Assembly (NCBI RefSeq): GCF_025244665.1
Contig: NZ_CP104205.1
Span: 372,001 to 436,000 of the forward strand
Direction of reading: 5' to 3'
Origin: Maribacter litopenaei
GTDB lineage: Bacteria; Bacteroidota; Bacteroidia; Flavobacteriales; Flavobacteriaceae
DNA: 64,000 bases
Part shown: positions 2,243 through 63,884 of the stretch, piece after piece
How the letters are laid out: each line of letters begins with the position of its first letter
How positions within the stretch are numbered: the stretch's first letter is position 1
Notes under the pieces: model-generated
Database searches by the model: none
Told to the model about the DNA's origin: nothing
Seen by the model: the letters and a program-made list of their open reading frames with translations, nothing else
Position numbers and translations under genes: made by a program

Positions 2243-3951
2243 CTATTTCAACGAATCAATCACACTACCGCACGTTAACATTGCATCACCATAATAAGGA
2301 TTACGGATTTCTTCTTCGGTGCTCAACCAAACCGCACCTTTATTGTTGTTTGCCATTGGGCATTTTTGAACGTATAGGGGGTTGTCAATGCTTTCGAGAT
2401 TCATTGCTATTGCAACCAAATTTTCATTGAGAATGACGAAATGACTACGTTGGTTTTCTAAATTAGAATTACTTGCAATGGCATCCAGCATTTCAATACT
2501 TTTGGATAGATGGGTTTTGAGCATTTTGTCCAAATCTTTTTGTGATATCACCTTCATTTTTTCGGAAGATACTTTCGCAAAATCGGAAACTTTTTCTGCA
2601 TTACTCGCTACCAAAGCATCTTTGAGTTCAAGGTATGACGGCAAAGCCTTCACAAACTGTTCTTGAAAAGAAGTTGAAAGTGACATTTCCATCGCCATCA
2701 TTTCTTTCTCTTCTTCAGTACTTTGATTCATCATCGATTTCTTCCCCTGCAATTGCGCAGCTGCATCTACGGTAAAAGTGCCATTGGTCACAATCTCATC
2801 GCCATTTTTTAAACCGGATGTAACCGTAAACATATCGCCATTGCGATTGCCAAGAGTAACTTCCCGCATTTCAAAAACAGGTTCGTTGGCGTTGGTTTTG
2901 ATGTACACCAAAGACCGTTCACCCGTCCACATCACAGCACTTGCAGGTATGGTCAGGTTTGATTCCGTATTTACCGTTGTTCCTTCTACTTTGCCAGTTA
3001 CGAACATTCCGGGTTTTAGCATTCCATCGCTATTTTTGAGATTGGCCCGAACGGTTACGGTGCGGGTTTGGGTATTCAGAACAGGGTCTATAAATGAGAC
3101 CGTTGCATCAAATTCCTTATTTGGATAAGCATTTGTCGTTACTGAAATTTTCTGCCCTTTTTTAAACTCTGAAATCTGGTTTTCGTAGGCATCAAATTCC
3201 GCCCATACAGAGTTTAGGTTACTCACCTTTACAATGGGCTGTCCCTGTTTTACATAGTCGCCTTCGGCAGCCATTTTTTCTGAAACCGTTCCGGATACGG
3301 TCGCATAAATCGGAAAGTTCTCTTTGACCTTGCCGGATTCCTCTATGCTATTGATTTGGGCTTCCGAGAGTTTCCAAAGTTTCAGTTTGTTGCGTACCGC
3401 CTTGTATAGTGAGGGTTGCGATTCTTTTAGCGAAGCCGCAGTAATCAATTCTTGCTGAGCAGCTATCAGATTAGGTGCATAAATGGTTGCCAACAATTGC
3501 CCTTTTTGTACTTCCTGACCTTCAAAATTGACGTTGAGCCGTTCAATTCTACCATCGAAATAACTGGCCTGCACCGCATTTTCTTCCTCGTTCATCTTGA
3601 TTTTTCCCGAAAGGGAAATCATATTCTCATCATCTACAGAAGCATTTCCCACGATGGATGTTTGGATGTCCGCCAATGCCATCGCATTTTTGGTCATCTT
3701 TATTTCGTTCATTGCAAGTCCATCAGCACCTGATTCCGCAGGAATTAAATCCATTCCGCAAATGGGACAATCACCTGGTTCGGGTTGCATAATCTGGGGT
3801 GCATCGAGCAGGTCCACATTTGACCTTCCGCTTCTGTGGAATGGTCGTGCTTATCTGTCATAGATTCTTCCGATGAGCCACCGAAAATGAGCCAACCACC
3901 AAGCAGTCCGACAACGACTGCAATAGCGATATATATGAAATTCTTGTTCAT
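2243..3951 (-). CDS. cusB: CusB-type RND periplasmic adaptor with metal-binding and DUF3347 domains (one frameshift)
   Basis: Membrane-fusion protein linking the RND pump to the outer-membrane channel. Order of domains: N-terminal anchor (MNKNFIYIAIAVVVGLLGG); a heavy-metal-binding finger built on WTCSMHP and CPICGMDL; HlyD-like hairpin and barrel domains (GTVSEKMAAEGDYVKQGQPI); and a C-terminal DUF3347 domain with QKCPM and LTCG. The frame breaks at 3793-3799, where TCTGGGG should be TCTGGGGG, i.e. H-P-Q-I-M on the coding strand. Adding one base gives 569 residues. It is 6 bp from the DUF305 gene. The DUF3347 tail closely matches the separate lipoprotein at 8240-8837, so both probably bind the same copper form. 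Confidence 0.9.
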
Positions 3952-3957
3952 AGCTAT

Positions 3958-4437
3958 TTATTTTTCGTTCTGTAATCGTTCAATCATTTCTTTCATTTCG
4001 GCAATTTCCCTGCGCTGTGCCTTGATGATTTCTTCTGCCAGTTTCTTCACCTCCGGGTCTTTGATGTCCGCTCGTTCACTGGTCAATATAGCGATGGAAT
4101 GATGCGGTATCATTGCTTTCATCCATAGTACGTCACCTACTGTGGATTTTTGGTCGCGAACCAAAAACAATGCCCCAAAAAACAAGACCAAACTACCTAA
4201 AAGAATGGCAATATTCTTTTTCTTGTCGGTGTACATCTTCCGCATAAAAAACCACATAATGACTGCCATTGCTGCTATGCCCGGACAGACCATATAGAAG
4301 CGCGTTAGGCTGAACCATACGTGGTCGAGTTCATAGGTGTTGAGATACATTGTGATGTACATTGCTACAAATGAGCAAGCCAGCATCATAAAAAATGTTC
4401 TGTATTTTCCTTTGTTTGCGTGTTTTGAATGTTCCAT
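3958..4437 (-). CDS. DUF305 membrane protein
   Basis: A 159-residue protein with three predicted membrane helices (about residues 12-32, 45-64, 76-95) and a C-terminal DUF305-type segment, DVLWMKAMIPHHSIAI, followed by a charged helix. DUF305 proteins carry a conserved M-IPHH motif and are frequent in copper/silver resistance loci of Bacteroidota. The exact function is unknown. The His pair in MIPHH is a possible metal ligand. It sits 19 bp downstream of the PepSY gene in the same operon and is intact. Confidence 0.85.
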   Translation of the reverse strand: MEHSKHANKGKYRTFFMMLACSFVAMYITMYLNTYELDHVWFSLTRFYMVCPGIAAMAVIMWFFMRKMYTDKKKNIAILLGSLVLFFGALFLVRDQKSTVGDVLWMKAMIPHHSIAILTSERADIKDPEVKKLAEEIIKAQRREIAEMKEMIERLQNEK

Positions 4438-4456
4438 AGTTTTTGAATTTTTGGTG

Positions 4457-5164: not shown

Positions 5165-5169
5165 ATAAC

Positions 5170-7710: not shown

Positions 7711-7783
7711 TACTTTACTAATTTGTGTCTGTTACGGAAAGGGTTACTACGAACCATCATACTACCCTTCCCGCAGCAGGACT

Positions 7784-8837: not shown

Positions 8838-8865
8838 TTTGTGTTTGTTTTAAATTGTTACTTTG

Positions 8866-11269
8866 TTAAAATCGGGCTAAAAGACCGCCACCCCAGCCAT
8901 ATCGGTTATTGTAATTTGCTTGTATTGAAAAATTTCGGGATAGGATATAAGAGGTTCCCACCAACCATTGCGTTTCGCCCTGATAGGATGTATCGCCTAT
9001 ATCGTTCACCCAACCAAAGTCTGCCCGGTATTCGTATTCCCCTTCAAGGAAAAAGCGTGGAAAAAGCAACAGTTCCCTATCGAGACGTATCCTTGGGCGC
9101 AGTTGATGGTCTACACTCACATCTACATTAAATCGGTAAGGCGTAAAGTATTTTACACCAATTAGACCTACTGTATTAAAGGTGTCATACGAGTCGGGTG
9201 TAGAAGTTTCGGTATTTACTCCTACATAGAGGCGCACCCAATCATTGAGATACCTATTATAGTTTACTTCGGCTTCAAGGTTTTTGTTATAATCGAACTC
9301 TGCTCTTAAACCAAATTCATTCCGAATATTGCTTGACATCAGAAATAGTTCATTAAAGTTTGAGCCTGCACGCAACAATCCCCAAGAATAGTAATGGTCT
9401 GTTTCGTCAATCAGTTTTTGAACGGGAAAGTTTTTCATCCTTTCATCCCTTGGGGTATCATAGCTGAATACGCGAGCCATACCGCCCATCATATGGTACA
9501 GGATGTGGCAGTGAAAGAACCAATCGCCATACTCCTCGTTATAGAACTCGATAACCACTTTCTGCATCGGTGGCACATTGACGGTGTGTTTCAACGGCGA
9601 GCGCTCACCATTTTCATTGATTACCCTAAAATAATGCCCGTGAAGGTGCATCGGGTGGTGCATCATCGTTAGGTTGTTAAGGGTAATGCGGGTTACTTCA
9701 CCACCCCTGATTTTAATCTTATCCGTTTCTGAAAGTGGCACACCGTTAATACTCCACACATAGCGTTGCATATTTCCGGTCAGGTTTAATAGAATGTCGT
9801 TTACGGGCAAATCAGCCTTGTAGGTGGTATTTTCCTTCGCTTTTAAGAAATCATAGTTGAAATAGGTTTTACGGGTATCGTAATCAAAAGAGGAAGTGTC
9901 TTTTTGCATCATAGGCATATCGTGCCCCATATGGCCTCCCATCATATGCGAAGGTTCGGTAGATTTCATTGGCATTGAATCTTTTTTCATTCCTGCCATA
10001 CCGTCCATCTTTTTATCCATCTTCATTTGCTTATGGTCGTCCATCTTCATATTGTCGCCCATTTCGCCTTTATTCATTGACATTTTGTCTTGCATTCCCA
10101 TATTCATCTGGCCATCTTTCATATCCATTTTCATCCCGTAATTTTCCTTCAAAAACTCGGGTGTTTTTTTCTTTTTGTTACCCACCATTGCAGGGGCGCC
10201 CATCTTCATATCCATTTTGGCCATTTGTTTCATCATTGCAACCTTGTCCGGTCTCTCAATTCTTTTTGCTGGATACAGGCTTCCCTGTCCCAAGCGCAAC
10301 GAGGTGCTACCGAGAACCGTCTTGAGCGGTGGCGGTAACTTCCAAAGTACCTTCAGGGATGGTTACGATAACATCATAGGTTTCGGCAATACCAAAAAGG
10401 AAACGGCTTTTAGGTACAGGTTCCACATCAATACCATCGCCCGCAACGACCATAGGGTTGCCACCGCCAAAATCCATCCAGTAATAGGTAGAGGCGGATG
10501 CATTGATAAAGCGAAGCCGTACTTTTTCGCCTGTTTTGAATTCGGGATACTCGGCCAATGATTTTCCATTGGTCAGAAATGCCGGATAATAGATGTCGGC
10601 TATATCTGCTCCTTCCATACGGTCTCTCCAAAATTTCAGTTGTGCACCAAATGCGCCTTCCTTGATAACCCTGCCCAAAGGAACCGCCGTACCTTTTTTG
10701 ACCTGATACCACTCGTTACCTCTTTTAAGGTTTCTCAAAACATTCATAGGATTTTCGTTGGTCCAATCAGAGAGTACCACAACCAAATCCTTGTCATATT
10801 CCGTAGTTTTTTCTTTTGGGTGAATAATAATAGACCCATAAACACCGCTTTGCTCCTGTAGCATCGTGTGGGAATGGTACCAGTAGGTGCCTGATTGGTT
10901 GATTGGGATTCTGTATTGAAAAGTTGTTCCTGGTTTAATAGGTGGCGTGGTCAAATAGGGAACGCCATCGTAAAAATTGGGTAATATCAACCCGTGCCAA
11001 TGTACAGAGGTTTCCACATCCATTTTATTGGTAACATTGATAATGGCGAGGTCGCCCTCGGTGAATTCCAAGACTGATCCAGGAATACTACCATTGATGG
11101 TCATTCCTTTTGCTGTTACACCAGCGAGCGTCATTTCATTTTCTTCAATGGTTAAGTTATACTCCTTGACAGGTCTACCTTCTTCATTTCTGTCCGCACC
11201 GTTTGTGCCTACTTGGGCAAATACAGTAGAAGAAAACAGCAATAGGGTGGTGATTTGTAATATTTTCAT
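8866..11269 (-). CDS. Multicopper oxidase fused to a PcoB/CopB-like barrel (one frameshift)
   Basis: Periplasmic Cu(I) oxidase of the PcoA/CueO type. It has a signal peptide (MKILQITTLLLFSSTVFAQ), cupredoxin domain 1 with HWHGL and WYHSH, a long Met/His/Lys-rich segment (repeats such as KMDKKMDGMAGMKK, HMMGGHMGHDMPMM), and a last cupredoxin with HPMHLHGH and HCHILYHMMGGM, which supply the type 1/2/3 copper ligands. After about residue 620 follows a beta-strand-rich region starting YYSWGLLRAG and ending YGWGGGLLARF, resembling the PcoB outer-membrane barrel. The single break at 10310-10315 (CCGAGA for CCAGA) is repaired to D-G-S-G-S-T-S, giving 800 residues. It lies 3 bp after cusC. Confidence 0.93.
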
Positions 11270-11271
11270 TT

Positions 11272-12487
11272 TTAATTTATTAAATAGTTTAAAAGTGCTG
11301 ATTGCACGTAATACATCTTTATGGATTCGATTTGGTTCATCTGAAATTTCAGTTGCAATTCCTGAATGTCCAGCACATCGTTAAAATCGATGGTTCCCGT
11401 TTCATAATTCTTTATTAATATTTCCTCGGCATCGTTAGCCTGCATTAAACTCTTTTCTTGGGTATTGAACTGAATACGGGCTTGATTGCGCTGTGATTTT
11501 GCTTTCGCGAAAGCGGTTTCAAGTACATTCAAACGCTCTGTTTTTTGTGATTCGATTTCCAGTTGTCTCAGTTCGTTCTGTTTGGAAACCGATGAATAGC
11601 GGTTGTTGAAAATAGGTATGGACAGCGATACCATTGGCATCACGATATCCTTGCCGTTGTCGCTAAAGGTCATATCGGGACGTTCGGAAACGGGTACATA
11701 GTCCAATCCAAAACCGATGTTCGGGGCACTTTCCTTTTGGTTCAGCAATTCGGATTGTTCAATGGACTCGTAAAGTCTATCATATTTGAGCAGTTCGGGA
11801 TTAAGCGCCAATCCTTCATCGCTGTATATCGGGTCTTCCGTTGGGATGGTCATTTCGGGACGATTTCAACGGCAATGCTTTCCTTTCGGTTCAAAAGATT
11901 GTTGAAGCTGACCTGTTCCGCCAAATACTCCTCCTGCAAGACCTCTTTTTGTTGTTGCAGTTCGTTCGGCGAATCTGCAACCGTAGAACATCAACTGCGG
12001 AAGCCTTGCCCACTTCCACAGAGGTCAATGCCAACCGTTCGTAAGTTTGTAGTAGTTGGATGTTTTCGTCCAGTACATCCTGTTTCGCATTGATGGCATA
12101 TAGTTGATAGTAGGATTGGGCGACCGAAAGTGCCAGTTTTCGTTTGGCAATGGCAATTTCAACAAACTCGGTTTCCGCCATTGAGCTGGCATAGTTTTCC
12201 CGTGCCGTTATCGTACCGAACCACGGCAACATCTGCGAAATCGAAAATCGTGCCCGTTGCGCACCCGTTCGGGTTTCGGGTTCGCTTACAAAGTATCCTG
12301 CGCTTACCACAGTATTAGGTAGCGTATTGACTTCGTTCACTTTTTCTTCGGCGATATTGTACCGCAGCTCGTAAGCCTGAATATCCGGATTGTTCGCTTC
12401 TGCTTCCTGTATATAAGATTGAAGCTCTTGCGCTTCCGCGTAAAAAGAAACAAGCAATAATCCGATGATGATTTTTACATTTTTCAT
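11272..12487 (-). CDS. cusC: CusC/TolC-type outer-membrane efflux channel (two frameshifts)
   Basis: Outer-membrane channel partner of the RND pump. It begins with a signal peptide (MKNVKIIIGLLLVSFYAEAQ) and shows two tandem coiled-coil-rich halves typical of the OEP family: SYIQEAEANNPDIQAYELRY and the later EIESQKTERLNVLETAFAKA-like helix. The end, SALLNYLIN, is usual for Bacteroidota members. Breaks at about 11966 (CCGAA for CCAGAA, restoring R-Q-N-E-L-Q) and about 11855 (CCGAA for CCAGAA, restoring V-P-E-M-T-I-P) reunite the gene at about 405 residues. The start overlaps the cusA stop (ATGA), so the two are translationally coupled. Confidence 0.9.
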
Positions 12488-15400
12488 TTGCTCGCTCGTT
12501 TAAGTTGATTTTCTTCCCGCCAGCTATATAGTACGGGCAACAGGAAATATGAGGTTACATCAATGAGCATCCCACCCACAATGGGAATGGCCATTGGAAT
12601 CATTATATCGCTTCCCTTTCCGGTGGATGTTAGCACTGGCAACAAGGCAAGAACGGTCGTTACGGTCGTCATCAAACAGGGACGGATACGCTTGCCTGCC
12701 GCTTCACGGGTAGCTTGACGAATGCCCGGTTTGTCATTCGGTTTTTCCTTATCGAAAGATTGGTCGAGATAGGTTGCCATCACCACACCGTCATCGGTAG
12801 CAATACCAAAGAGTGCGATGAATCCGACCCGGACCGCAACGCTCAGGTTGATAGTTTTGATATTGAACAACTCGCGAAGGTTCTCACCGAACAAATTGAA
12901 ATTGAGAAACCAGTCTTGTCCATAGAGCCAAATCATCACAAAGCCACCTGCAAATGCTACGGCAATGGCGGTAAATACCATCAATGAGGTGGTGACCGAT
13001 TTAAACTGAAAGTATAGAATGAGAAATATGATAATCAAGCATAGCGGAACCACGATGGACAGGGTTTTCTCTGCACGCAACTGGTTTTCATAGGTGCCCG
13101 TAAACTTGTAGCTGATGCCTTTGGGTACGGTCAGTTCGCCGCTGTCTATCTTTTCTTGAATCAAGGCCTGGGCATTTTCCACCACATCCACTTCGGCAAA
13201 GCCGTCCAGCTTGTCAAATAAAACATAGCCGACCAAGAAGGTGTCCTCACTTTTGATGACCTGCGGACCTTGCTCATACCGGATGTCCACGAGTTCGCCA
13301 AGGGGAACGGGGCTTCCTTTTTCCACGGGAACGTAGATATTCTTTAGGTCGGTCGGATTATCACGCAGCTCTCGTGGGTAGCGTACCCTAACGGCGTAGC
13401 GTTCCCTACCTTCGACTGTTTGGGTCAGGGGCATCCCACCTACGGCCACTTGCAGGATTTCCTGTACGTCCATAATCGAAACCCCGTAACGCGCCAACTG
13501 TTCCCGTTTGATATCCACCAACAGATAGGGTTTGCCCACGATACGGTCGGCAAATACGGCCTGTTCTTTTACACCTTCGGCCTGTTTCAATATTTCTTCG
13601 AGTTCCAAGCCGAAAGCTTCGATTTCCCGTAAGTCCTGCCCCTTGACCTTAATGCCCATTGGCGCGCGCATACCCGTTTGCAGCATCACCAATCGGGTTT
13701 CGATAGGCTGTAACTTAGGGGCGGAAGTAATACCGGGCAGTTTAGTGACCCTGACGATTTCGTTCCGGATATCATCCGGGCTCGGATTTCAGGTCGCCAG
13801 TTTCGGTAGTACTCGCCATCATCATCGGGAATCAATTCGTTTCTTGTGATGGTAGTTTGCAATTGGGATGCTTCATAACTGGCATCGTTTTCTACTTCGT
13901 TGTTCGGATTAATATGGAACCTATCATTTTTCAATACAAAAAGTCCGTCGTCGTTTACCCGATAGCGTTGCCGTTCCCCTGAAGCGTTGCGCATATATTC
14001 CGACTTGTACTGAATCACGTTCTCGTACATCGAAAGCGGTGCCGGGTCAAGCGCGGATTCGGTGCGGCCTGCCTTTCCGACCACGGTCTCGATTTCAGGG
14101 ATGGTGGCCACCGCCATATCCAATTGTTGCAAGACCCGTTTATTTTCGGCTACACCTGAGTGCGGTAGCGAGGTAGGCATCAACAGGAACGAACCCTCGT
14201 TGAGCGCTGGCATAAATTCCTTACCCGTGTTGCGCATTATGAAGAAACCGAGAACCAGCAATGTGGTGGGAATTATCAAGAACAGCAATCTGTTTTGCAA
14301 TGCCCATCTTAAGATGCTATCGTAGTATTTTCTGAGTAGCGAAAAGATGCCCGAACACCAAAACAGCTTACCGCTACAAAAATGAGGTTCATAATCAGGC
14401 TGCGGTCGAAGCCGAGCGGTCGCCAGTATTCAGCCAATAGGAATACAACTGCGATTGTGGCAATAGCCGTATTGATGAGATTTTTTTGCTTTACCGCTAC
14501 GCTCTCCCTTTGGTCGTGAATCTCGCCAGCTCGATTTCGCGAAAGCGTAACACGCATCGATAAAATGGCTACCAAGCCAAAAGCGACAAGTACCAATCCT
14601 ATCCAATACCCAAAAATCACTGCGGTGATTCCCAAAAGGATTAAAAGCCCATTGATGGCATATTTGAGCCGTTCCCGCATTTCGGTCTTTCTAAAGAAAG
14701 TGGCTGCGAATGGCGGTATAAGGAATAGGGCAATAACGAGTGCAGCGGCCAATGCCATTGTTTTGGTAAATGCCAATGGTCGAAAGAGTTTCCCTTCAGC
14801 ACCAATCATCGTAAACACCGGAAGGAAACTAATTATTGTAGTCATTACAGCAGTAACAATAGCGCCGGAAACTTCGGATGTGGCGTTGTAAACGATTTCG
14901 TTTGTTGTATAGGGTTGACCGTTTTTGTTTACCCGCAAGTCTTCATCTTCCGGATGTCGAATCATATTTTCGGCAAGGATGACCCCGACATCTACCATCG
15001 TACCAATAGCAATGGCGATACCCGAAAGTGCCACAATGTTCGCATCCACATTAAAGAGCTTCATCGTGATAAAGACCATCAACACCGCCACGGGCAATAA
15101 TCCGGAAATCAATATGGATGCTCTGAGATTGAAAACCATTATGATAATGACCAAAATGGTAATCAGGATTTCCAAGGTCAGGGCCTCGTTGAGCGTACCC
15201 AAGGTTTCTTGAATGAGTTCGGTACGGTCGTAAAAGGGGACAATAGTGACTTGGGAGGTTCTACCGTCGGCCAGTTCTTTTGAAGGAAGCCCCGAGCTTA
15301 CCTCGTCGATTTGGTCTTTGACATTATTGATGACTTCCAGCGGATTGGCACCGTAACGGGCAACTACCACACCGCCCACGACTTCGGCACCTTCCTTGTC

Positions 15401-16280: not shown

Positions 16281-16385
16281 ATAAAATGATAATTAGACAG
16301 TTATACAATTGTGGCTTGTTGCAATTCTAAAAGTTGAATACAACAAAACGTGCCCGGAACGGGATAACCGTTGGGCTTAGTGCCG

Positions 16386-20209: not shown

Positions 20210-20768
20210 TTGATAAGTATTAGCGACAAAATGTTCATTACAAAAGATATCAATGCAGCTACTATAGCCTATTTTAAAAAGATAGTGCTACGTAAATTAT
20301 TGATGAGTTTTTCCTTTGAACCACAATCAAATAATGAAGCTATTACCGGCCTCTTCAAAAGCATCAATCATTATGGATTTGACTTGCCCAACGAGTATGA
20401 ATTAGACCCTTCTCGGAATGTTATGGCAGTTCAAAAATAACCTTGAAAAGGCCGAGCTAACCGCTCTATACTTTTGGGGCTTGAACCAAAAATACATGTA
20501 CTATTTCAAGAATTTTACAGATGAAAGTGACACCTATTCGGAAAAGAAATTCGACGAGGAATTTGGCAGGTTTCTTGCCTATAAAATCTATGACCCAAAT
20601 GCTAGTGGATTGGAGGAGGATACTATGGAAGAACTCAAAGTACTCTTATGTTGTAATTTCGCTAGTGAATTTGATTTATCGGTTATAGATGAATTTACAT
20701 CAGAAGAGATAGTAGAGGTTATTGATATCTACTGTTCATCATCGAATAATTTTGTACCAGTTCTCTAG
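20210..20768 (+). CDS. Hypothetical protein (one frameshift)
   Basis: I do not recognise this gene. The frame breaks at 20411-20416, where TCTCGG should be TCTGG, giving D-P-S-G-M-L-W-Q-F-K and a protein of 185 residues from the TTG at 20210, or 178 from the ATG at 20231. It is acidic in the C-terminal half (EEDTMEELKVLL, DEFTSEEIVEVIDI) and has an aromatic-rich centre (ALYFWGLNQKYMYYFKNF). There is no signal peptide or membrane helix. It is the only plus-strand gene of the mobile region and lies between the oriT-like structure and the AbiE pair. Confidence 0.6.
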
Positions 20769-21724: not shown

Positions 21725-22485
21725 TTGCAAATTCGGTAGGAACGGTTATTTTATATTTTGAATTGTAAACACCATTTTTTACGACACTTCGTTTACCACT
21801 TCCCAAATCTATTTTTTCGAGGTTTATATGTTGAACCCAACTATGACCAGCCTTTTCTGCCGAGATATAGAAAGAGGCGTTTTACCTTTATGGAGGAACA
21901 GTTTTCCAATAGATTTTGAACAAGATTGGGTCTTAGATTATTTAACCCTTCCATTAATTGGTAACACTCTAAAAGTTCTTGATTTTTGGGTGTTAAAAAT
22001 AGGCACTCTAGCATTGCCCTCGCAGCACTGGAAACTTTTATGGTGAATGTTTTTAGCTCCACTTCCGTAAGTCCTATTTCTGCTGGTAGAAAAGAAGAAC
22101 TATAATAGTCTAGGGTTACGCCCCAATCATGCTTTAAGCACCAAGTGGGCAGCTTTTCGTTTTTTCCACCGAACAGTGTAACCTTTTTTTGGGAAAGTTC
22201 TAAATAATGTGATTTTCCGAGTAATGAGAAAGCGGTCTTCCCTGCTGGATGTACAAATAGCCCTGCTTGATTTTGAAGGGCATAGATAGCCCCTTCGTAA
22301 CCGACATCATCGCCCGAGCGTATCATGGCTCCTGTACCTATTGAAGTAAACCAGTCACTGCTACGATATCTTTTTTGCAGATCAAGGCTATATCCTTGCC
22401 CTACTAACCAAGAAGATAGGTAAACGATTCCCGAAGGATTCGCGCCCAATAATTGGTTTATTTTTAATTTACTATCGGTACTCAC
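21711..22485 (-). CDS. abiEi: AbiEi-type antitoxin (one frameshift)
   Basis: Cognate antitoxin and autorepressor of AbiEii. The N-terminus has a wHTH-like region (QLLGANPSGIVYLSSWLVGQGYS with a break after SLDLQKRY), and the central AbiEi domain includes SSAARAMLECLFLTP. The frame breaks at 21860-21865 (CCGAGA on the plus strand for CCAGA). Correction gives YLAEKAGHSWVQHINLEKI and the full C-terminus VPTEFANGEL, 257 residues, ending 14 bp inside abiEii. About 230 bp without a gene precede it and should hold the promoter and operator. Confidence 0.88.
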
Positions 22486-23535: not shown

Positions 23536-24466
23536 CTAGAGAAATTTACTCCGTTCTACCAAAAACGTGTTGAGTATTGTGGTAAAGTCCCTATTAATAT
23601 CGACTTCCACATATTTAATTCTGTACTGTGCGCACTTCAGTTTAATGTTGGTGTAATATTTACTTATACTTTCCTCATATGCCTCTTTGACGTTGTCTGC
23701 ATAAAGATCAAGATATTCACCTGTTTCCACATCTAAGAATCTTTTGGGTGTATTGTCAAAATTTAAGTGAAATTCAAGTTCCTTGTCCATTAAATGGAAA
23801 AGAACCACTTCGTGTTTGTTGTATTTTAAATGACGAAGTGCCTCAAATAGTTCCTCATCTTCTTTTTCAGTTTGAAGCATGTCCGTGAAAAGAAAAATTA
23901 GGCTTCTTCTCTTTATTTTTTCCGCTATCTCGGTGAAGGTAGGTGTAGGTTCTTGTTTCTTTCACTAGATTTTTATCGGCCCCAATTTCATTCAATTTTG
24001 CCAATAGCATCCGGAAGTGTCGTTCACTTCCCTTTTCAGGGGCATAATAGTGATAGTCATCTGAAAAAACACTTAGACCTACGGCGTCCCTTTGCTTTTT
24101 TAGCACGTTCATGAGGGCCGCAATGGCCAAAATGCCAAAACCTATCTTGTTGAGGTTTCCAATTCCTTGGTTTTTGACATCAGGGTAGAACATGGAGGCC
24201 GAATTGTCCAAAATCATATGGCACCTTAAATTGGTCTCTTCCTCGTATCGCTTTGTATACAGTTTATCGGTCTTGGCGTATAATTTCCAATCAATATGCT
24301 TGGTACTTTCGCCATTGTTATAAATTTTGTGTTCTGCAAATTCCGCAGAGAAACCATGGAAGGGGCTTTTATGGATGCCACTTATAAAACCTTCCACTAC
24401 CTGACTGGCCAGTAGCTCAAGATTTGGAAATAATGATGCGTTATTTAATTCTTGTCGAATATCCAC
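23536..24466 (-). CDS. DUF58 domain protein (one frameshift)
   Basis: Cytoplasmic DUF58/vWA-like protein usually found with MoxR ATPases. The N-terminus has HKSPFHGFSAEFAEHKIY and HIDWKLYAKTDKLYTKRYEEE, the DUF58 core, followed by the MIDAS-like LDNSASM. The frame breaks at 23928-23933 (TCTCGG for TCTGG). Correction reads TYTYLHQIAEKIKRRSLIFL followed by FTDML and gives 309 residues. It is the first chromosomal gene right of tRNA-Asp, separated from trxA by a terminator. Confidence 0.88.
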
Positions 24467-40956: not shown

Positions 40957-42134
40957 ATGAGAAGCGACTTATTTGAAGCACCTGATTATTATCATTTGGA
41001 CGATTTGTTGTCCGATGAACACAAATTGGTACGTGATGCGGCCAGGCAATGGGTGAAAAGGGATATTTCTCCTATAATTGAAGAGTATGCCCAAAAGGCC
41101 GAATTTCCCAAACAAATTATCGGAGGATTAGCAGAAATAGGCGCTTTTGGCCCGTACATTCCTGAAGAATACGGCGGAGCTGGCCTTGACCAAATCAGTT
41201 ACGGACTAATCATGCAGGAAATTGAACGGGGTGATAGTGGTGTACGCTCTACTGCATCCGTTCAGTCCTCTTTAGTAATGTATCCTATCTATACGTATGG
41301 TACCGAAGAACAACGTAAAAAGTACCTTCCAAAATTGGCGAGTGGTGAGATGATGGGCTGTTTCGGTTTAACGGAGCCCAACCACGGCTCCAATCCCGGA
41401 GGTATGGAGACCAAGTTCAAGGATATGGGGGATCATTATTTGTTGAATGGGGCGAAACTGTGGATTTCCAATTCACCTTTTGCGGATATCGCCGTTGTTT
41501 GGGCTAAAAACGAGGAGGGAAGAATTCACGGATTAATAGTGGAACGTGACATGGAAGGATTTTCTACGCCGGAAACGCATAATAAATGGTCACTAAGGGC
41601 TTCGGCTACCGGCGAACTTATTTTTGATAACGTCAAAGTTCCCAAGGAAAATTTATTACCCAATAAATCGGGTTTAGGGGCTCCGTTAGGGTGTCCGGAT
41701 TCTGCTAGATATGGAATTTCTTGGGGAGCTATCGGTGCTGCCATGGACTGTTATGATACAGCTTTACGATACGCCAAGGAACGTGTTCAATTTGGCAAGC
41801 CCATAGCCGCCACTCAGCTCCAACAAAAAAAATTGGCCGAAATGATTACCGAGATTACCAAGGCCCAATTACTGGCTTTCCGATTGGGGCAACTAAAAAA
41901 TGAGGGTAGGGCCACGACGGCCCGATTTCCATGGCGAAGCGAAACAATGTGGAAATGGCCATCAATATTGCCAGGGAAGCTAGACAAGTATTGGGAGGTA
42001 TGGGAATCACCGGAGACTACAGCATTATGAGGCATATGATGAATCCGGAGAGCGTGATTACCTATGAGGGTACCCATGATATTCACCTATTGATTACTGG
42101 AGCGGATATTACCGGACACCAGGCATTTAAATAA
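40957..42134 (+). CDS. Acyl-CoA dehydrogenase, glutaryl-CoA dehydrogenase-like (one frameshift)
   Basis: FAD-dependent acyl-CoA dehydrogenase. Features include [37 protein letters not shown] (FAD-binding loop), [29 protein letters not shown], and the C-terminal catalytic region [15 protein letters not shown], in which YEGT carries the base Glu. This pattern matches glutaryl-CoA dehydrogenase (lysine/tryptophan breakdown), but the substrate is not proven. The break at 41922 (CCCGATT for CCCAGATT) restores [16 protein letters not shown] and gives 392 residues. A terminator follows. Confidence 0.92.
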
Positions 42135-42290: not shown

Positions 42291-43638
<1,348 letters not shown>

Positions 43639-44663: not shown

Positions 44664-45525
44664 TTATTTGGCCTTGACCAATCCGCTGATCCTGAATTCG
44701 TCCAAAAGGCTTTGGAACAGTTCGGCTTTTTCGAGAACGGGGTGTTCCTCATCAGAATCCTCCGTTAGGTTTTTTATACCTAGATCAGCAAAAAAAGAAT
44801 AAAGATCCCATCGGCCGTTAACATATTCCAAGGCAGTTAGGTTTTCAATCCAATCCCCTGAATTCAAATAGGTTACTTCACCTTTTTCCGTTGTAATTTT
44901 TCGTATTTCTCGGTTGATGTATATGGCCACAAACAACAAATTCATAACCATTTTCAATGGCGATTTCAGAGGCTGTGGTTTCAAAGTTATTGATGAACTT
45001 AACAGCCGATTTGACACCGTTCTTTATTTTTTTGGACATGGAAATGGGTCACTACCCAATTGTTTGCTCAAAAAATTTATGGCCCTGTTCAATAAGATTA
45101 AAAAGTCATACCCTTTGGCTCCAAGTTTGGCCACCCATTTTGAGTGTTGCATGGTCACATCAAATACATCACCGTGAAAGAACCACGCCTTTTTTCCATG
45201 AATGGGCAAAACCACTTTATTGACGATACTTAACGAACCCATTTGAAATCCTGTAAATTTCCGAAGCATTTCATCATGGTTGCCCGTGATGTAATGTACT
45301 TTGATACCCTTTGCAATCCAACCCATAAGGTACTTGACGACCTTCATGTGCGATTTGGGCCAGTAGCGTTTACTAAACTGCCGAGATATCTATAATATCG
45401 CCGTTTAGGATTACTTCCTTAGGAGCAATAGACTTTAGGTATTGTAATAGTTCGTTCGCGTGGCATCCGTAGGTGCCTAAATGCACATCAGATATGACCA
45501 CGATGTCAACAGGTCTTTTTTTCAT
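44664..45525 (-). CDS. lpxH: UDP-2,3-diacylglucosamine diphosphatase-like metallophosphoesterase (three frameshifts)
   Basis: Calcineurin-like phosphoesterase, likely the LpxH step of lipid A synthesis. Metal-binding motifs: VVISDVHLGTYGCHANEL, LNGDIIDIW, ITGNHDE, HGDVFD and VVCGHIHQPE. Breaks: 45381-45386 (CCGAGA for CCAGA, restoring DIWQFSKRYW), about 45046 (GTGACCC for GTGGACCC, restoring GSGPISMSKKIKN) and 44908-44913 (TCTCGG for TCTGG, restoring HQPEIRKITTE). Correction gives 286 residues. The gene heads a run lpxH - glycosyltransferase - GH1. The LpxH assignment rests on motifs and length. Confidence 0.88.
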
Positions 45526-47117: not shown

Positions 47118-48480
47118 ATGTGCAGTCTTATTCAAAAATATAATATTCCAGGTCCTAGGTATACCAGTTATCCAACGGTACCTTTTTGGGATATCCAATC
47201 GTTTTCACGGGAAAAAATGGGAAGCCACGGTAAGGCAAAGTTTTTCCGAGTCGAATTCTAAGGAGGGCATCAGTCTATACATTCATCTTCCCTTTTGTGA
47301 GAGCATGTGTACGTTTTGTGGGTGCCATAAACGTATCACCAAAAGGCATGATGTTGAGGTTCCTTACATACGGACCTTGTTGAAGGAATGGTCCCTTTAT
47401 TTGGAGTTGTTTGATCAAAGACCTATAATCAAGGAGTTGCATTTGGGAGGGGGACTCCAACGTTTTTTAGTCCGAGAGAATCTACAATTGCTTATCAACG
47501 GACTTTTTAGAAGGGCCGATAGGGCAGAGGACTACGAATTTAGTTTCGAGGGACACCCAAATAATACGACAAAGGAACACCTTCAGGCCCTGTACGATGT
47601 GGGATTTAGACGGGTAAGTTATGGCGTACAGGATTATAATGAGACCGTTCAAAAGGCCATCCATCGGGTACAATCCTTTGAAAATGTGAAGAACGTTACG
47701 GAGTGGGCCAGGGAAATTGGGTATACATCCATTGGTCACGATATCATTTTTGGGTTACCGCACCAAACCTTGGAGCACGTACTCGAAACCATTGAAAAAA
47801 CGAAATCCTTAAAGCCGAGATAGATTGGCGTTTTATAGTTACGCTCATGTGCCTTGGCTCAAGGGAAATGGTCAGCGTGGTTATAAGGATTCCGATTTGC
47901 CATCAGCCGAAGAGAAGCGTGAACAATATGAAGCTGGCAAGTTGGAGCTGGCAAAGGCCGGGTATACTGAAATAGGTATGGATCATTTTGCCTTGGACAC
48001 GGATAGTCTGTATCAATCCATGCAAAGTGGAAAACTGCACCGAAACTTTATGGGTTACACGGCTTCCAAAACAAAATTAATGGTGGGTCTTGGAGCCTCC
48101 AGTATTAGCGATAGTTGGTATGGTTTTGCGCAAAACGTCAAGAGTTTGGAGGAATATCAGCACTTGGTGGAAAACAATATTATTCCCATTTTTAGAGGCC
48201 ATATTTTAACCGATGAGGATAGGATCATAAGGAAGCACATTCTTAACTTAATGTGTCAACTTGAAACTATTTGGTTCAAGGAATCTATGCAGTTCAAGAC
48301 ACTACCTATGGTAATGGACAGGTTGAAGGAGATGCGGGAGGACGGACTTCGGAAATGACCCAATACCAATTACGAATTACCGAAAAAGGTCGGCCGTTTG
48401 TACGAAATATATGTATGGCGTTCGATTTGAAATTGCATGAAAAAACACCGGAGACAAGACTGTTCTCCATGACCATTTGA
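47118..48480 (+). CDS. hemN: Oxygen-independent coproporphyrinogen III oxidase (five frameshifts)
   Basis: Radical-SAM enzyme of anaerobic haem synthesis. The start MCSLIQKYNIPGPRYTSYPT is typical, the cluster motif is in CESMCTFCGCHK (C-x3-C-x2-C), and GGGTPTFFSPENL, DYNETVQKAIHRVQ and SYAHVPWLKGNQ-like sequence follow. Breaks: 47211 (A run, restoring REKWEATV), 47448 (G run) and 47472-47477 (CCGAGA for CCAGA), which compensate each other and garble only about eight codons around GGGTPTFFSPEN; 47815 (CCGAGA for CCAGA, restoring KPDRLAFYSY); and 48349 (TTCGG for TTCTGG, restoring DGLLEMTQYQ). Corrected length is 453 residues. Confidence 0.95.
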
Positions 48481-52512: not shown

Positions 52513-52958
52513 CTAATAAGTAATGTTTTCTTTATGCAAATAATCCGTACCGTTGTAGTTCCAACTAACTTTAATGTCCCAGCGACCATCCAACAAGCGG
52601 TTGTCAGGTATGAGCAAATGGTTATTGGACAAACTTATGGGTAAGTTAAAATCCAATTGCTTATTAGATGGTCTGTATAGGGACACTGTGCCTTCAATTT
52701 CTTTTGGGTTCACTTTTTCTGGAAACGAATTTCAAGTCCGTCCGGACTTTTTCTCACTTGTAATTTATTGATGTCCTTGGTGGCATTGTTTTGGGCATCG
52801 ATTTCTTTCTGATAGGCCAATTCCTGCCTGTAATAATCTTCCGTTACAAGGTCATGATTAGCACGATTATCCGTACTCATTCGTACCACAAAGAAGAGGA
52901 TAAAGCCAATAAAACCTATAAATGCCAATACGATTCCTGTTCCCCAATTAAATTTCAT
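52513..52958 (-). CDS. ccoH: FixH/CcoH-like cbb3 oxidase assembly protein (one frameshift)
   Basis: Single-span membrane protein: helix in GTGIVLAFIGFIGFILFFVV, then the FixH sequence NHDLVTEDYYRQELAYQKEI. The frame breaks at 52718-52722 (TTCCAGA for TTCCCAGA), restoring RFPEKVNPKEIEGTVSLYRP and a periplasmic Ig-like domain with DGRWDIKVSWNYNG. Corrected length is 148 residues. CcoH stabilises early CcoN/CcoP complexes. Confidence 0.9.
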
Positions 52959-55692: not shown

Positions 55693-57894
55693 CTATTTAT
55701 TTTCTGATATTAATTCGTTTGTTTCCTTAATTTTTATATCCGTACCCAATCGTTGTAGGTAGGCGATCATGGCAACAATTTCCCTGTCGCGCATTTCTAT
55801 GAATTCCTCCCCGTTTTCAGCGGCGTATTTTTTATCCGCCTCGTAGGTCGATGCAAAATCGGGATCGCTGTAAAGATTCTTCTCTATTTGTAGGGCCTGT
55901 TCGCTCATACTGGCTTCGGCATTGGCAATATCCTCATCGGTATAAGGTACTCCCAAGGTAACCATGGCCTCCATTTTGTCCTGAACCCCACTTCTGTCAT
56001 GTTTGTTGCGTACCAACCACGAGTAGGAGGGCATTATGGAACCGGAAGAGGTCGTTTGCGGATCGTACATATGGTTCAAGTGCCAGTTATCCGAATACTT
56101 TCCACCAACACGTAGCAAGTCCTGACCTGTTCTTTTACTTCCCCATAGGAATGGATGGTCGTATACGAACTCACCTGCCTTGGCATATTCTCCATAGCGT
56201 TCTACCTCACTTCTAAAAGGCCTGATCATTTGGGAATGACATCCTACACAACCTTCTCTTATATATAGGTCCCTTCCTTCTAACTCTAAAGGTGTATAGG
56301 GTTTTACACTGGTGATGGTAGGAATATTGGACTTCACCATAATGGTAGGTACAATTTGTACAATACCCCCAATGAGAATGGCTACGGTAGCCAAGATGGT
56401 CAATTGGATAGGTTTACGCTCCAACCAAGTGTGAAAGGTTTCCCCAACAGTCCGACCTTTTGATACTCGTGTAAGGGCAGCGGCTTCGGCCAACTCGTCC
56501 TCCACTTTTTGTCCTGATTTTATGGTTACAACGATATTGTATACCATTACGATGGCACCTACGATGTAAAGGCTACCGCCAATGGCTCGCATCCAATACA
56601 TGGGGATGATCTCGTTTACGGTTTCCAAGAAGTTACCGTAGACCAAGGTTCCATCCGGATTGAAATCTTTCCACATCAATGCCTGTGTGAAACCGGCGAC
56701 GTACATAGGTAGGGCATATAATATGATACCCAAGGTTCCGATCCAGAAATGGAAGTTTGCCATTCCTACGGAAGCCAAACGGGTCTTGAACATTTTAGGA
56801 ACCAACCAATAGATCATACCAAAGGTCAAGAAACCGTTCCAAGCCAAGGCACCTACGTGTACGTGGGCAATAATCCAATCGCTAAAGTGGGCTATGGCGT
56901 TTACGTTCTTTAAGGAAAGCATTGAACCTCAAAAGTGGCCATACCATACCCGGTAATCGCAACCACCATAAATTTAAGCGTAGGATCCGTACGCACCTTG
57001 TCCCAAGCACCCCTCAAGGTCAAAAGACCATTGATCATACCACCCCAAGAAGGAGCTATCAACATAACTGAAAAGGCTACCCCAAGGTTTTGAGCCCAAT
57101 CCGGCAATGCGGAGTATAATAAGTGGTGAGGTCCTGCCCGAGATATATATGAATATCAAAGACCAAAAGTGTACGATCGAAAGTCTATAGGAATATACAG
57201 GTCTGTTAGCCGCTTTGGGCACAAAATAGTACATCAATCCCAAGAAAGGGGTTGTCAAGAAGAAGGCAACCGCGTTATGGCCATACCACCATTGTACCAA
57301 GGCATCCTGAACCCCCGCGTATACGGAGTAGCTCTTTAAGGCGCTTACCGGTAACTCCAAACTATTGAAAATATGCAGTACCGCTACGGTTACAAAAGTG
57401 GCCAAATAGAACCAAATGGCAACGTATAAATGGCGTTGTCTTCTTTTGATCATAGTGCCAATCAGGTTGGCCCCAAAGGCTACCCATACAAGGGCAATGG
57501 CAATATCTATGGGCCACTCCAATTCTGCATATTCCTTAGAAGTTGAAAAGCCCAACGGCAACGTAATGGCTGCGGCCACAATGATCAATTGCCAGCCCCA
57601 AAAGTTGATGTTGCTCAGCACATCGCTGAACATCCGTGCCTTTAGTAACCGTTGGGTCGAGTAATACACACCGGCAAAAATGGCATTACCTACAAAGGCA
57701 AAAATGACCGCGTTGGTGTGCAAGGGTCTTAAACGGCCAAAACTTAGCCAAGAAATTCCGTCCGTGACATTCGGAAAAAGGAACATAAAGGCCAATAATA
57801 GGCCGACGGACATACCAACAATACCCCAAAGCATCGTGGCATAGATGAACTTTTTTACGATTTTGTTATCGTAATAAAACTGCTGTACTTCCAT
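55693..57894 (-). CDS. ccoNO: Fused cbb3 oxidase subunits I and II, CcoNO (two frameshifts)
   Basis: Catalytic subunit of the high-affinity cbb3 oxidase, with CcoN joined to CcoO as is usual in Bacteroidota. CcoN part: [35 protein letters not shown] and [20 protein letters not shown] (haem and CuB His ligands), then [16 protein letters not shown]. CcoO part: membrane anchor at about residue 520 and the haem c motif [12 protein letters not shown]. Breaks: 57138-57143 (CCGAGA for CCAGA, restoring IWAGPHH) and about 56926 (GAGGTTCAATG for GAGGGTCCAATG, restoring [12 protein letters not shown]). Length 733 residues. Confidence 0.96.
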
Positions 57895-57900
57895 AGTTGA

Positions 57901-58207: not shown

Positions 58208-60605
58208 TTATTTCAATTTTCTGCCCTGTAGGTTGGTCATTATCGTTGTAAACCCAACCACGCTGATGGAGCTCAAGGGCATTAAAATTGCCGCGATGAC
58301 CGGTTCCAATTGCCCGGTAACCGCAAAATAGAGTCCTACCACATTGTAAAGGAGCGACAGTAAAAAGCTGAGTTTTATTATTTTCATGGCCTTTTTTGAG
58401 GCGATGATGTATTGATATAATTGCTGGAATTTTGAGGCATCCAAAATACCATCACATGCAGGGGAAAAAACATTGATGTTCTCCGATATAGCAATACCCA
58501 CTTCCGCTTGGGCGAGGGCACCTGCATCGTTCAATCCGTCACCCACCATAAGGACTTTTTTGCACTGTTCTTGTAAAGAAGTGATAAAGGCTAGTTTGTC
58601 CTCCGGTTTTTGGTTGAAATACAACGGAGTCAATTTGGGTAACAGTTTTTCCAAGTTTCGTTTTTCGCCCTCGTTATCCCCCGAAAGAATAGCCAATTGC
58701 AGTTGTCCCGCCATTTGTTCAAAGACTTCGGTAACACCTTCCCTATATTGATTGTGGAATACATATTTACCTTTATAGGTATTGTTGCTCGCCACATGCA
58801 CGGCGGTGTTCAAACTGTCCGAAACCTCTTCCTTGCCTACAAATTCAGAAGAACCAATCTTTATATGTTTGTTCCCCTTACTACCCTCCAGTCCTTTGCC
58901 AAGGTGTTCCTCATAATCGTCCAGGGTGTAAATATTATGATCAGACAAAATATCATATAAGGTCCTGCTCAATGGGTGGTTAGAAGCCCTAAGGGTATTT
59001 TTTAGAAGGGATTCCTCTTCGGGTGTCAACGGCATGCCTTGGTAGGTGGCCGTACTTTGTTTGGAAGTGGTAATTGTCCCGGTTTTATCAAAAATAGCTG
59101 TGTCTACCTGTGCCAATTGTTCAATGGCACTGGTATCCCTTAAGTAGAATTTTTTTTGACCAAAGATGCGAAGCATATTACCCAAGGTAAAGGGCGAGGC
59201 CAAGGCTATGGCGCAAGGACACGCTATGATAAGCACCGCTGTAAAAACATTCATCGCCAAGGATGGGTCAAAATATATCCAATACGAAGTGGCCAAAAAA
59301 GCAATGGTCAATACCCCAATGGTAAATCGTTTTCCAATGCTATCGGTAATGTTTTGGAATCGGGTGGACTTGTCCGTTTTAAAGACCGAATTGCTCCAAA
59401 GCTGGGTAAGGTAACTTTGGGAGACCGATTTTAAGGCCTCGACTTCTATGGGGCCGTTCATTTGTCTTCCCCCTGCGAATACCTTATCTCCAAATTCCCG
59501 TTCTACAGGGACCGATTCCCCCGTTACAAAACTGTAATCAATTTGTGCCTTTCCCTTATAGTGAATACCATCAACTGGAATCAGTTCTTCATTTCTGATC
59601 AATAGCAGGTCACCTTGTTTAATTTCGTGGACTTGAACGCTTTCCTCGGTGCCATCATCATTTATTTTGGTGACTGCGATGGGAAAGTAGGATTTATAAT
59701 CCCGTTCAAAAGACAGGAAGGAATAGGTCTTTTGTTGAAAAAATTTCCCAAGCAGTAGGAAGAAGACCAATCCTGTAAGGGAATCAAAAAAACCGCTTCC
59801 CCAATCGAACATGATTTCAAGGGTACTTCGTACAAAAAGGACCAAAATCCCCAATGAAATTGGAACGTCAATGTTCAGGATTTTGGAGCGTAGCCCTTTA
59901 TAGGCCGAAACAAAGTAGTCCGCTCCCGCATAAAAAACGACGGGTAGCGAAAAAGCGAACATCAACCATCTGAAAACTACTTCGTACTGATTCAACCAAA
60001 ACTCACCACCGGAGGTTTTGCTGGAGCTTAGATCAAAATAATCGGGAAAAGATAGGAACATCACATTGCCAAAAGCAAATCCGGCTACGCCCAACTTATA
60101 TATAAGGCTTCGGTCAACCTTCTTCTCCTTTCCGTCAATATCTTCTAAGGATATATAAGGTTCATATCCTATCCTTGCCAATAGTAACACTACATCCTTT
60201 AAAGAGGTTTTTTGGCTATCATAGGCGATTCTAACTGTTTTCTTTGAGAAGTTTACCTGCGATGAGGATATGAACGGGTTCAGCTTGTTCAGGTTCTCCA
60301 AAACCCAAATACAGGAGCTGCAATGAATCAATGGAACATATAGATTTACGATCTGGAGGTTGCCGTCATTGAATTCCGTTAATTTTTCAATGATGCTTTC
60401 GGTTTCCGAGAAAGTCATATTTACCTTCAATCGTGGTGGGCGTAGAACCTGCTGAAGCCTGTATGTCGTAATAATAAGAGAGATTGTTTTCCGAAAAAAT
60501 CTCGTAGACCGTTTTGCATCCGTTGCAACAGAAGCATTTTTCGTCGTATTCGATACTGTCGGAACCGCAATCATCACCACAGTGATAACAGGGTTGTTTT
60601 TCCAT
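58208..60605 (-). CDS. ccoI: CcoI/FixI-type copper P1B ATPase (one frameshift)
   Basis: Copper-exporting ATPase that supplies CuB to the cbb3 oxidase. It has an N-terminal Cys-rich region (PCYHCGDDC, KCFCCNGCKTVYEIF), an HMA-like domain with HCSSCIW, eight membrane helices, TGESVPV, the CPC site in IACPCAIALASP, DKTGTITTS and GDGLNDAGALA. The break at 60406-60411 (CCGAGA for CCAGA) restores YDFLETESIIEKL, giving 798 residues. The start ATG at 60605 is used. It differs from the resistance-type CopA at 5170-7710 in its N-terminal metal sites. Own Fnr-type promoter shared with fnr. Confidence 0.95.
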
Positions 60606-62355: not shown

Positions 62356-62400
62356 CATCAAACTTAAAGGAATCCAGTAACAAGGACAACGTATTACTTT

Positions 62401-62628
62401 CTAATTGATTCGGTTCCCTATCGGATTGTCTTCGTAGAAGTCCTTAAAAGTCTTATCTGTAGTGTAGTTATCCGTTAAAACCTTATACACCATATAAACA
62501 ACAAGTGCCTGCCCCAACACGGTACAGTAAAATACCCAATTAAAGGGAAGGTTCATCACGGACATTATAGTTACCGTGACTAAGGCCAAGGTTGTAATTA
62601 CTATCCAAACGTACACTGAATCTTTCAT
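62401..62628 (-). CDS. Small two-helix membrane protein
   Basis: A 75-residue protein with two membrane helices (VWIVITTLALVTVTIMSVM and WVFYCTVLGQALVVYMVYKV) and a conserved-looking tail FKDFYEDNPIGNRI. I do not know its function. It is placed in the respiratory and stress neighbourhood. The preceding minus-strand gene appears to run into it by 89 bp, which is probably an artefact of an unrecognised frameshift there. Confidence 0.7.
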   Translation of the reverse strand: MKDSVYVWIVITTLALVTVTIMSVMNLPFNWVFYCTVLGQALVVYMVYKVLTDNYTTDKTFKDFYEDNPIGNRIN

Positions 62629-63884
62629 TTTTATCTGTAAGATAATGGTTAAGGGTTGCAGAATGCGTTAAAGGATTTCTAAAAAATGAGTTACTAATTG
62701 TGGACCAAAATCTATCGGTTTCCGGAATCGTGTTTTTAAAATCTATTTCCAAAGGATTTTGGTTTGTCTTTGCAAAGTAATACCAAAGTGTTGCCGATAG
62801 GGCCGGAGTAATATCCGAGTGGTCCCATAAATTGTTTTCGCCATAGGTAGTACCGAAATTTGCCGTATAGGGTATGCCTTTGGCATTTTCTGAAATGGAA
62901 CTTTGAATAGATGTCTTTTCAATATTTTCCGGAATCCCTTCCGAAAGATCGAATCGCTGAATGCTATTAAATGCCACAGCCATTTGGGCGGTGCCTTCCA
63001 ACCAAATCACATCCTTATCTTCGTCAAAGCAATATCCGTAAATCAGTTCTCCACTTAAGGTGGCGGTTTGTTCATTAATGAACTTGTTGGCTTGAAACAG
63101 CACATCGTCAGATAGCTCATTGAATATCATTTTACTTAAGGAAAATACATCTAGCGCATAGGCATAATCCGGGTTTTACGGCCAGGCCATTAAAACGCCC
63201 AATTCTTGGTCCCATCGATTATTTTGTAGAAAGCTTAAGAGGTTCTTATGGAATTCGTCATACCCTTGTACAGCATGAAAAGCCGTAATCATACCTTCCG
63301 TAACATTTGGGATTTCTGTTCCGTCAGGATTATATCCACCTTTTAAAGCTCCGTTCTCCATTTGAAGGGAACGCAACCAGGTTTCCAATTTGAGGGAAAG
63401 TGAGTTGTATTTTCCAGATTGATATGTGTTCTCATATTGATTTAAGGCAATCAATAACCAGGCATTATCCCCCATCCATATTCTTTCAGGTTCGGAACCA
63501 TCAGAATTTCTAAATTGGTAAAAGCCACCAGTTTGTGATAATTCTGTGTCTGAAATGGATTCATAATAATCTAAAATCATTTCGGCATTACCTTTCATGC
63601 CCTCTTGCATAAAGAAAATAGCGGCAAGGGCATTATCATACAAGGAAGTAAAGCCGAGATATCTCGGTACTTTCCAATAGGCCGGAAGGCTGTTGCCTGT
63701 TCAAAATCCAATTGGTGAACGCTACATCAAAAACTTGGGATTTTTGGATTGTTTTTTCAGATTCCGTTGCTATTTCCTGATCTAAGGAAACCTTTAAGTC
63801 TTCATGCAGGGTAGTAACGTCCTCTTTGCTACAAGAGGATAAAATAATAATGAAGAATGAGAACGCGATTAATCGTAGGTTCAT
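62540..63884 (-). CDS. Alpha-toroid glycosidase-like lipoprotein (two breaks, 3' end uncertain)
   Basis: Lipoprotein (signal ending FFIIILSSCSKE) with an alpha/alpha-barrel style body: SQVFDVAFTNWILNRQQPSG, YDNALAAIFFMQEG, RIWMGDNAWLLIALNQYE, YAYALDVFSLSKM and VIWLEGTAQMAVAFN. Acidic and Trp residues suggest a carbohydrate enzyme but I cannot assign a family. Breaks: 63655-63668, which holds both CCGAGA and TCTCGG (one spurious base; either repair rejoins the frame), and an in-frame TAA at 63176 (CCGTAA for CCAGAA, restoring AWPENPDYAYAL). The open frame to 62540 overlaps the next gene by 89 bp; a stop at about 62669 in another frame, after a T6 run, is a better end. Confidence 0.7.

Follow-up and report, generated by a model that had tools for sequence, protein, structure and literature searches.

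The stretch analysed here, a window of 64,000 nucleotides from Maribacter litopenaei (bases 372001-436000 of a one-contig assembly 3,864,532 bases long; estimated completeness 81.68), holds many genes that fall into pieces, among them dnaE, encoding the alpha subunit of DNA polymerase III, a sulfatase gene and genes for several efflux proteins (Table 1). The breaks gather on strings related to the five-base word CCAGA (TCTGG on the opposite strand), namely CCGAGA, CCGA, CCGTAA and CCGTGAA. An earlier note on this DNA had listed 34 such sites and had ascribed them to systematic base-calling error at a methylated CCAGA; the strings it named stand at all 34 positions, within one base. Elsewhere on the chromosome, dnaA and ligA (1.96-1.97 Mb) are fragmented as well, and in each of the three replication genes the fragments match successive parts of one model. 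All three genes are normally essential. Of the four breaks called in dnaE, three lie at CCAGA-related strings, and the one at 28348 falls into a loose GGWCC class that is described below.

Table 1. Altered words, called breaks and split genes in the window (coordinates count from the first base of the window)
Feature	Position	Strand	Support
CCGAGA between two multicopper oxidase pieces	10310..10315	+	string; split domains
CCGA at junction of two outer-membrane efflux protein pieces	11855..11858	-	string; split domains
CCGA near ACR_tran efflux protein split	13782..13785	-	string; split domains
CCGA near ACR_tran efflux protein split	14351..14354	+	string; split domains
CCGAGA, +1 frameshift	20411..20416	-	string; called break
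CCGAGA, +1 frameshift; TCTGG in relative	21860..21865	+	string; called break
CCGAGA, +1 frameshift	23928..23933	-	string; called break
GGWCC-type -1 frameshift; GGACC in relative	24755..24771	-	called break
dnaE (DNA polymerase III alpha) in pieces	26784..30628	-	called breaks 26798, 27729, 28348, 28761
CCGAGA, +1 frameshift	31051..31057	-	string; called break
CCGAGA, +1 frameshift, absent from the earlier note's list; CCAGA in relative	31205..31213	-	called break
CGGAAGG where S16 alignment ends; one base fewer than relatives	31995..32001	+	DNA alignment
CGGAAGG where RimM alignment ends; CCAGAAGG in G005 and G007	32617..32623	+	DNA alignment
CCGAGA, +1 frameshift	33498..33503	-	string; called break
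CCGTAA giving in-frame stop	34420..34425	-	string; called break
CCGAGA, +1 frameshift; CCAGA in relative	36059..36064	-	string; called break
CCGA, -1 frameshift in sulfatase	36858..36861	+	string; called break
CCGTGAA, two bases ahead of sulfatase alignment end; no break called	37930..37936	+	string
CCGAGA, +1 frameshift	38173..38178	-	string; called break
CCGA, -1 frameshift; CCAGA in relative	41922..41925	+	string; called break
CCGAGA, +1 frameshift	42985..42990	-	string; called break
CCGAGA, +1 frameshift	44908..44913	-	string; called break
GGWCC-type -1 frameshift; GGACC in relative	45041..45057	-	called break
CCGAGA, +1 frameshift	45381..45386	+	string; called break
CCGAGA, +1 frameshift	47472..47477	+	string; called break
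CCGAGA, +1 frameshift	47815..47820	+	string; called break
CCGA, -1 frameshift; TCTGG in relative	48349..48352	-	string; called break
CCAGA retained, -1 frameshift beside it	52718..52726	-	string; called break
GGWCC-type -1 frameshift; GGTCC in relative	56921..56937	-	called break
CCGAGA, +1 frameshift (CcoN site); TCTGG in relative	57138..57143	+	string; called break
CCGAGA, +1 frameshift	60406..60411	+	string; called break
CCGTAA giving in-frame stop	63176..63181	-	string; called break

Breaks were called without knowledge of the motif, by aligning the genes of two same-genus genomes, G005 and G007, with a frameshift-tolerant codon aligner to a 194-kb target made up of the window and its flanks. 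Together with G002 these are the nearest genomes of the genus (99-100% complete; identity of a marker protein of the window 95% for G005, 92% for G007 and 84% for G002), and the named relatives of one window protein belong to Maribacter and neighbouring Flavobacteriaceae. The 76 aligned genes (88,068 nt) contain 61 frameshifts, distributed over 34 genes, and 10 in-frame stops, giving 71 breaks, 37 of them inside the window. Between G007 and M. litopenaei the same procedure finds 37 of 75 genes broken (60 frameshifts, 10 stops), whereas between the relatives it finds 2 of 80 from G005 to G007 (2 frameshifts, 2 stops) and 7 of 81 in the opposite direction (1 frameshift, 8 stops).

The association with CCAGA that the earlier note had seen by eye is borne out by these independent calls. 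CCGAGA, CCGTGA or CCGTAA lies within 8 nt of 38 of the 71 breaks, compared with 1.94% of 20,000 random coding positions (binomial p ~1e-45), and at 4 further breaks the relative carries CCAGA or TCTGG. CCGA accounts for 6 breaks (background 9.0%), and the scripted GGWCC-type class, a loose one whose signature occurs at 16.4% of random positions, for 12; the remaining 11 fall into no named class, and by eye 3 of them adjoin a surviving CCAGA. Seen from the strings, 34 of the 46 copies of CCGAGA in the aligned coding DNA lie no more than 12 nt from a break. Site by site, 22 of the 25 listed positions that could be aligned coincide with a called break (a frameshift or in-frame stop in the protein alignment within 12 nt). 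The other three, 31994, 32616 and 37930, lie within the final bases of an alignment, and no break is called there because the alignment stops. For 31994 and 32616, where the earlier note had read CGGAAGG as a probable altered form, the DNA alignment does show a base missing relative to the relatives; at 37930 the DNA aligns poorly to them. Nine of the 34 sites lie in the first 17 kb of the window, to which no relative aligned. At four of these (10310, 11855, 13782 and 14351) adjacent open frames hold successive parts of one protein, with ACR_tran split over neighbouring frames into positions 57-498, 525-632 and 666-913; the split at 11855 is weaker evidence, because the outer-membrane efflux family normally has two such domains. 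At the remaining five (3793, 7200, 7500, 11966 and 16054) the string check is the sole support.

Broken genes are, however, not the whole picture. About 103 copies of CCAGA are expected in the window and 17 are present; the 34 listed sites therefore represent the visible part of the losses, and breaks a minority of them. Copies that look intact do persist, as had been noted, although 3 of the 17 are sites that the same note had counted as having lost a C. Over 354 kb there are 123 copies, 0.22 of the relatives' level (z -17.0), which is the largest deficit of any 5-mer, the next reaching -5.9, and in all of eight stretches of 20 kb, sampled along the chromosome, 4-12 copies stand where 32 are expected. 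CCGAGA is in excess in these stretches, and a genome-wide count of it, of the kind proposed in the earlier note, gives 1,760 copies, whereas eight same-genus genomes have 323-858 each. Across 440 kb the genome lacks 553 of the 707 copies of CCAGA expected and shows excesses of 371 CCGGA, 128 CCGAGA and 27 CCGTAA. Because the excess of CCGGA is far above that of CCGAGA, the commonest fate of a lost CCAGA is probably a silent A-to-G change, which the earlier note had missed. CCGA (2584 against 2643 expected) and CCGTGA (99 against 99) show no bulk excess, so that these forms, seen earlier at single genes, are known from individual sites only.

Direct comparison with the relatives gives a similar picture. 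CCAGA is the least kept 5-mer into the window from G005 (3 of 62) as well as from G007 (2 of 72); the two genomes, compared with each other, keep 14 of 79 and 14 of 71. Among changes private to M. litopenaei it ranks third of the 5-mers (12 of 14 changed, which are small numbers), behind two overlapping or related words. The earlier note had limited the motif to five bases because both sides vary, but the flanks are not free: NCCAGAT is kept in 82 of 201.5 expected cases, and ACCAGAT in 32 of 40.5, whereas all contexts other than NCCAGAT together keep 72 of 505. Other words were considered as misread and set aside, GATC and CCAGG (CCWGG) with keep rates near the control, and AGGCCT, which counts in the window had suggested (4 of 52 against 24 of 56), because its density over 440 kb (0.195 per kb) falls within the relatives' values (0.185, 0.200 and 0.275).

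A second word, GGWCC, likewise went unseen in the earlier note. At the near-universal CCAGACTCC site both 16S genes carry an extra, inserted base, yet the two are altered differently: one copy reads GGATCGAGACTCC and the other GGACTGAGACTCC, whereas in G007 and G002 the sequence is GGACCAGACTCC in all four copies. Over 2,625 compared columns the two rRNA copies disagree at 8. At each of the four such sites within 16S the relatives have GGACC or GGTCC, and the change is C-to-T in sense on one strand or the other; one of them coincides with the CCAGA insertion. The alignments preserve GGACC at 33 of 132 places, compared with 64 of 161 in the control, its main products being GGATC (18) and GGACT (9), and at 7 of the 71 breaks the relative has GGACC or GGTCC at the spot, one of these having been counted above as a CCGA form. 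The longer word AGGACCT is not depleted (41 copies against 27.3 expected).

We are confident that the gene breaks are consensus errors caused by CCAGA methylation in a native nanopore-type assembly, and not mutations. The motif-specific, systematic error that the earlier note had proposed is supported by the CCAGA deficit in all eight stretches, the excess of CCGGA and CCGAGA, the split replication genes, the 16S copies and the comparison with relatives. Methylation as its cause fits a published 5-methylcytosine (m5C) at CCAGA and the failure of the palindromic GGWCC, both of which are indirect indications; judged from the sequence, CCAGA methylation is very likely real. We envision a scenario whereby native (unamplified) nanopore reads would have been assembled without adequate short-read correction, a DNA methyltransferase would mark the non-palindromic CCAGA/TCTGG, and the modified signal would be misread by basecaller and polisher. 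Such misreading would most often turn A into G (CCGGA), silently with respect to the frame, would often insert a G (CCGAGA) and would sometimes drop a base (CCGA) or yield CCGTAA or CCGTGAA, and only the length-changing or stop-creating outcomes would surface as broken genes. GGWCC would be misread mainly from C to T, at times with loss of a base. If the breaks are reading errors at CCAGA and GGWCC, then the cell itself probably has unbroken copies of these genes. The platform, the causal role of methylation, the modified base and its writers are what we infer from these patterns; the single contig and the estimated completeness fit native long reads but are no proof of them.

Several observations weigh against this interpretation. 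An A-to-G outcome is not what would be expected from an m5C mark, and a dedicated adenine methylase was not found in searches of the genome for PF01555, PF02086 and NPPY/NPPF. The CCGGA excess depends on the relative chosen (2.416 per kb here against 1.900, 1.359 and 1.337). From G002 to the window CCAGA is kept in 3 of 48 cases and lies outside the six lowest 5-mers, and when judged against the relative-to-relative control it is tied with ATTAC and GGACC. ATTAC/GTAAT, a word that this interpretation does not cover, is kept in 82 of 229 cases for the window and G005/G007, against 114 of 255 in the control. The bulk deficit of GGACC, finally, is modest, varies with the relative (0.755 per kb against 1.315, 0.941 and 0.887) and is absent from one of the eight chromosome stretches.

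Which base might carry the mark? Only one strand of CCAGA contains an A, a feature shared with many words that bear an adenine mark on a single strand. Conceivably, then, the artefact is the same but the mark is N6-methyladenine, set on the A by a writer outside the candidates found; we hold this to be unlikely, though it deserves serious attention. For the 553 missing CCAGA the closest counterpart is the A-to-G product CCGGA, with 371 copies in excess, and A/G ambiguity is a published form of error (PMC11610573). On the other hand, neither an alpha-class nor a beta-class adenine methylase was found in the genome: a profile search for PF02086 (Dam-like) yielded none, and PF01555 (beta-class N6/N4, type III Mod) gave no match at E 0.001, while 8 of the 13 genomes searched have one. 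Inspection by eye of the 90 NPPY/NPPF matches left no more than five methylases: two HsdM proteins of type I, PrmC, and two of RNA or protein type. Four Eco57I-family hits were likewise discarded as adenine writers, two being the HsdM genes, one PrmC and the fourth, below the cut-off, a 252-aa frame in the window that by eye resembles an RNA or protein methylase. Moreover, the published methylation of CCAGA is m5C (PMC7973814, PMC7046676). The HsdM genes belong to two type I restriction-modification loci, at 2.87 and 3.61 Mb.

Explanations that dispense with methylation fare worse. A modification-free bias of basecaller or polisher at CCAGA, or ordinary homopolymer error, is very improbable: a signal-context effect would give the flank-dependent loss seen here, but the breaks centre on one 5-mer and its derived forms and not on single-base runs, and we reason that so strong a bias in unmodified DNA should appear across many genomes. 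Real pseudogenes, through genome decay or a mutational process hitting CCAGA in this strain, are more improbable still, because, although the strings stand in the deposited assembly and host-associated bacteria do carry frameshifted pseudogenes, the fragmented genes include dnaE, dnaA and ligA, both 16S copies are changed differently at one near-universal site, and relatives with 84-95% marker-protein identity are almost free of breaks.

How might the marks be written, if methylation is the cause? The search for a methyltransferase that the earlier note had suggested finds three cytosine-5 methyltransferase (PF00145) genes as candidates, at 1.952, 3.175 and 3.682 Mb. The gene at 3.682 Mb has relatives with 72-88% identity in 11 of the 12 genus genomes searched, G008 being the exception; it stays a candidate CCAGA writer, because genomes of relatives would be free of the errors if they had been assembled in another way. 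The other two genes have best matches of 23-41% identity in the genus, or of 52% when a 100-residue part of one fragment is compared. The 3.175 Mb gene adjoins an EcoO109I-type nuclease gene (PF14511 at 6.4e-47, positions 2-110 of 198 in an open piece), which lies ~0.4-0.8 kb away in the opposite direction, and by virtue of this neighbour the methyltransferase is a candidate that probably writes GGWCC. Within 3.168-3.182 Mb the EcoO109I-like nuclease and methyltransferase genes are themselves broken, by eye at TCTGG-like strings. Against solved structures the EcoO109I-like piece has no match at E 0.01; a 202-aa nuclease-like neighbour has one weak match, to the uncharacterised protein 2l57 (E 0.002), and a third nuclease-like neighbour matches the HNH endonuclease structure 6yex (2.8e-16). 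The 1.952 Mb methyltransferase adjoins a 365-aa HNH protein, its three best plasmid matches are ~55% identical over 73% of its length, and the two of these that were viewed lie in LlaJI-type operons. By elimination and context it is the leading candidate for the CCAGA writer, an assignment that we offer tentatively. More speculatively still, the uncorrected consensus might serve as a methylome read-out, in which CCAGA would be modified either by a cytosine-5 methyltransferase paired with an HNH protein and acting on an asymmetric target, or by an adenine enzyme of a family outside the search.

Some features of the window stand apart from these questions. Positions 2243-19287 hold genes of metal-efflux type (HlyD/CusB-like, P-type ATPase pieces, multicopper oxidase and ACR_tran efflux), and a relaxase gene of MobB type comes after them. 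The G005 stretch compared contains nothing syntenic to this region, which looks like an integrated mobile element. Rfam matches in the window comprise one tRNA and one S16-Flavobacteria ribosomal protein leader (31489-31524, upstream of the S16 gene) and no others. At 38170-40077 a protein is built of several similar repeats of ~120 residues, and self-similar DNA matches are found there.

By very rough extrapolation (71 breaks per 88 kb), the chromosome would contain ~2,800 false breaks, which may explain the completeness of 81.68%. The apparently pseudogene-rich genome would then mislead, and its errors would pass into counts of genes, statements on pseudogenes, 16S comparisons and protein databases that draw on it. 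At the same time, the error footprint points to two probable methylation motifs without recourse to raw signal. The near-universal 16S site offers a simple screen, as an inserted base just before GACTCCTACGGGAGG would flag affected assemblies, and, if our interpretation is true, sentinel sites such as 16S CCAGACTCC could reveal a hidden mark in public genomes. The motif test could be applied to another, nanopore-only Maribacter genome, whose 173 pseudogenes, mostly frameshifts, are discussed as host adaptation in a report that mentions long-read error for a different feature (PMC10942906).

Among known systems, the EcoO109I type shares with the 3.175 Mb locus a PF14511 nuclease beside a cytosine-5 methyltransferase. 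EcoO109I itself targets RGGNCCY, a specificity that does not hold here, as GGWCC is lost in many contexts and AGGACCT shows no depletion. The target of LlaJI is asymmetric, and the LlaJI-type plasmid operons of Vitreoscilla and Acinetobacter contain the methyltransferases that share ~55% identity with the 1.952 Mb enzyme; in two records an AAA ATPase and a nuclease of the LlaJI family accompany them, whereas an HNH protein takes their place at 1.952 Mb. The word itself has a precedent in Neisseria meningitidis, where CCAGA is described as the m5C motif of a type II system, confirmed by MspJI and with a cytosine methyltransferase as predicted writer (PMC7973814, PMC7046676). The same non-palindromic five-base word would be methylated in both organisms, but the writer here is a candidate, likened by motif and not by enzyme sequence. 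Among the papers listed for CCAGA and methylation, two name the word, both on Neisseria and neither on Bacteroidota. Finally, nanopore assemblies of bacteria have been reported to carry methylation-induced errors in which A is confused with G and C with T (PMC11610573); these errors are tied to native DNA and, as here, bound to motifs. They consist of substitutions at RACG/CGTY in Klebsiella, with an RA/TY core across species, whereas in M. litopenaei the word is CCAGA, insertions and deletions are many, and the errors are known from the assembly alone. The instance is new; the kind of artefact is already known.

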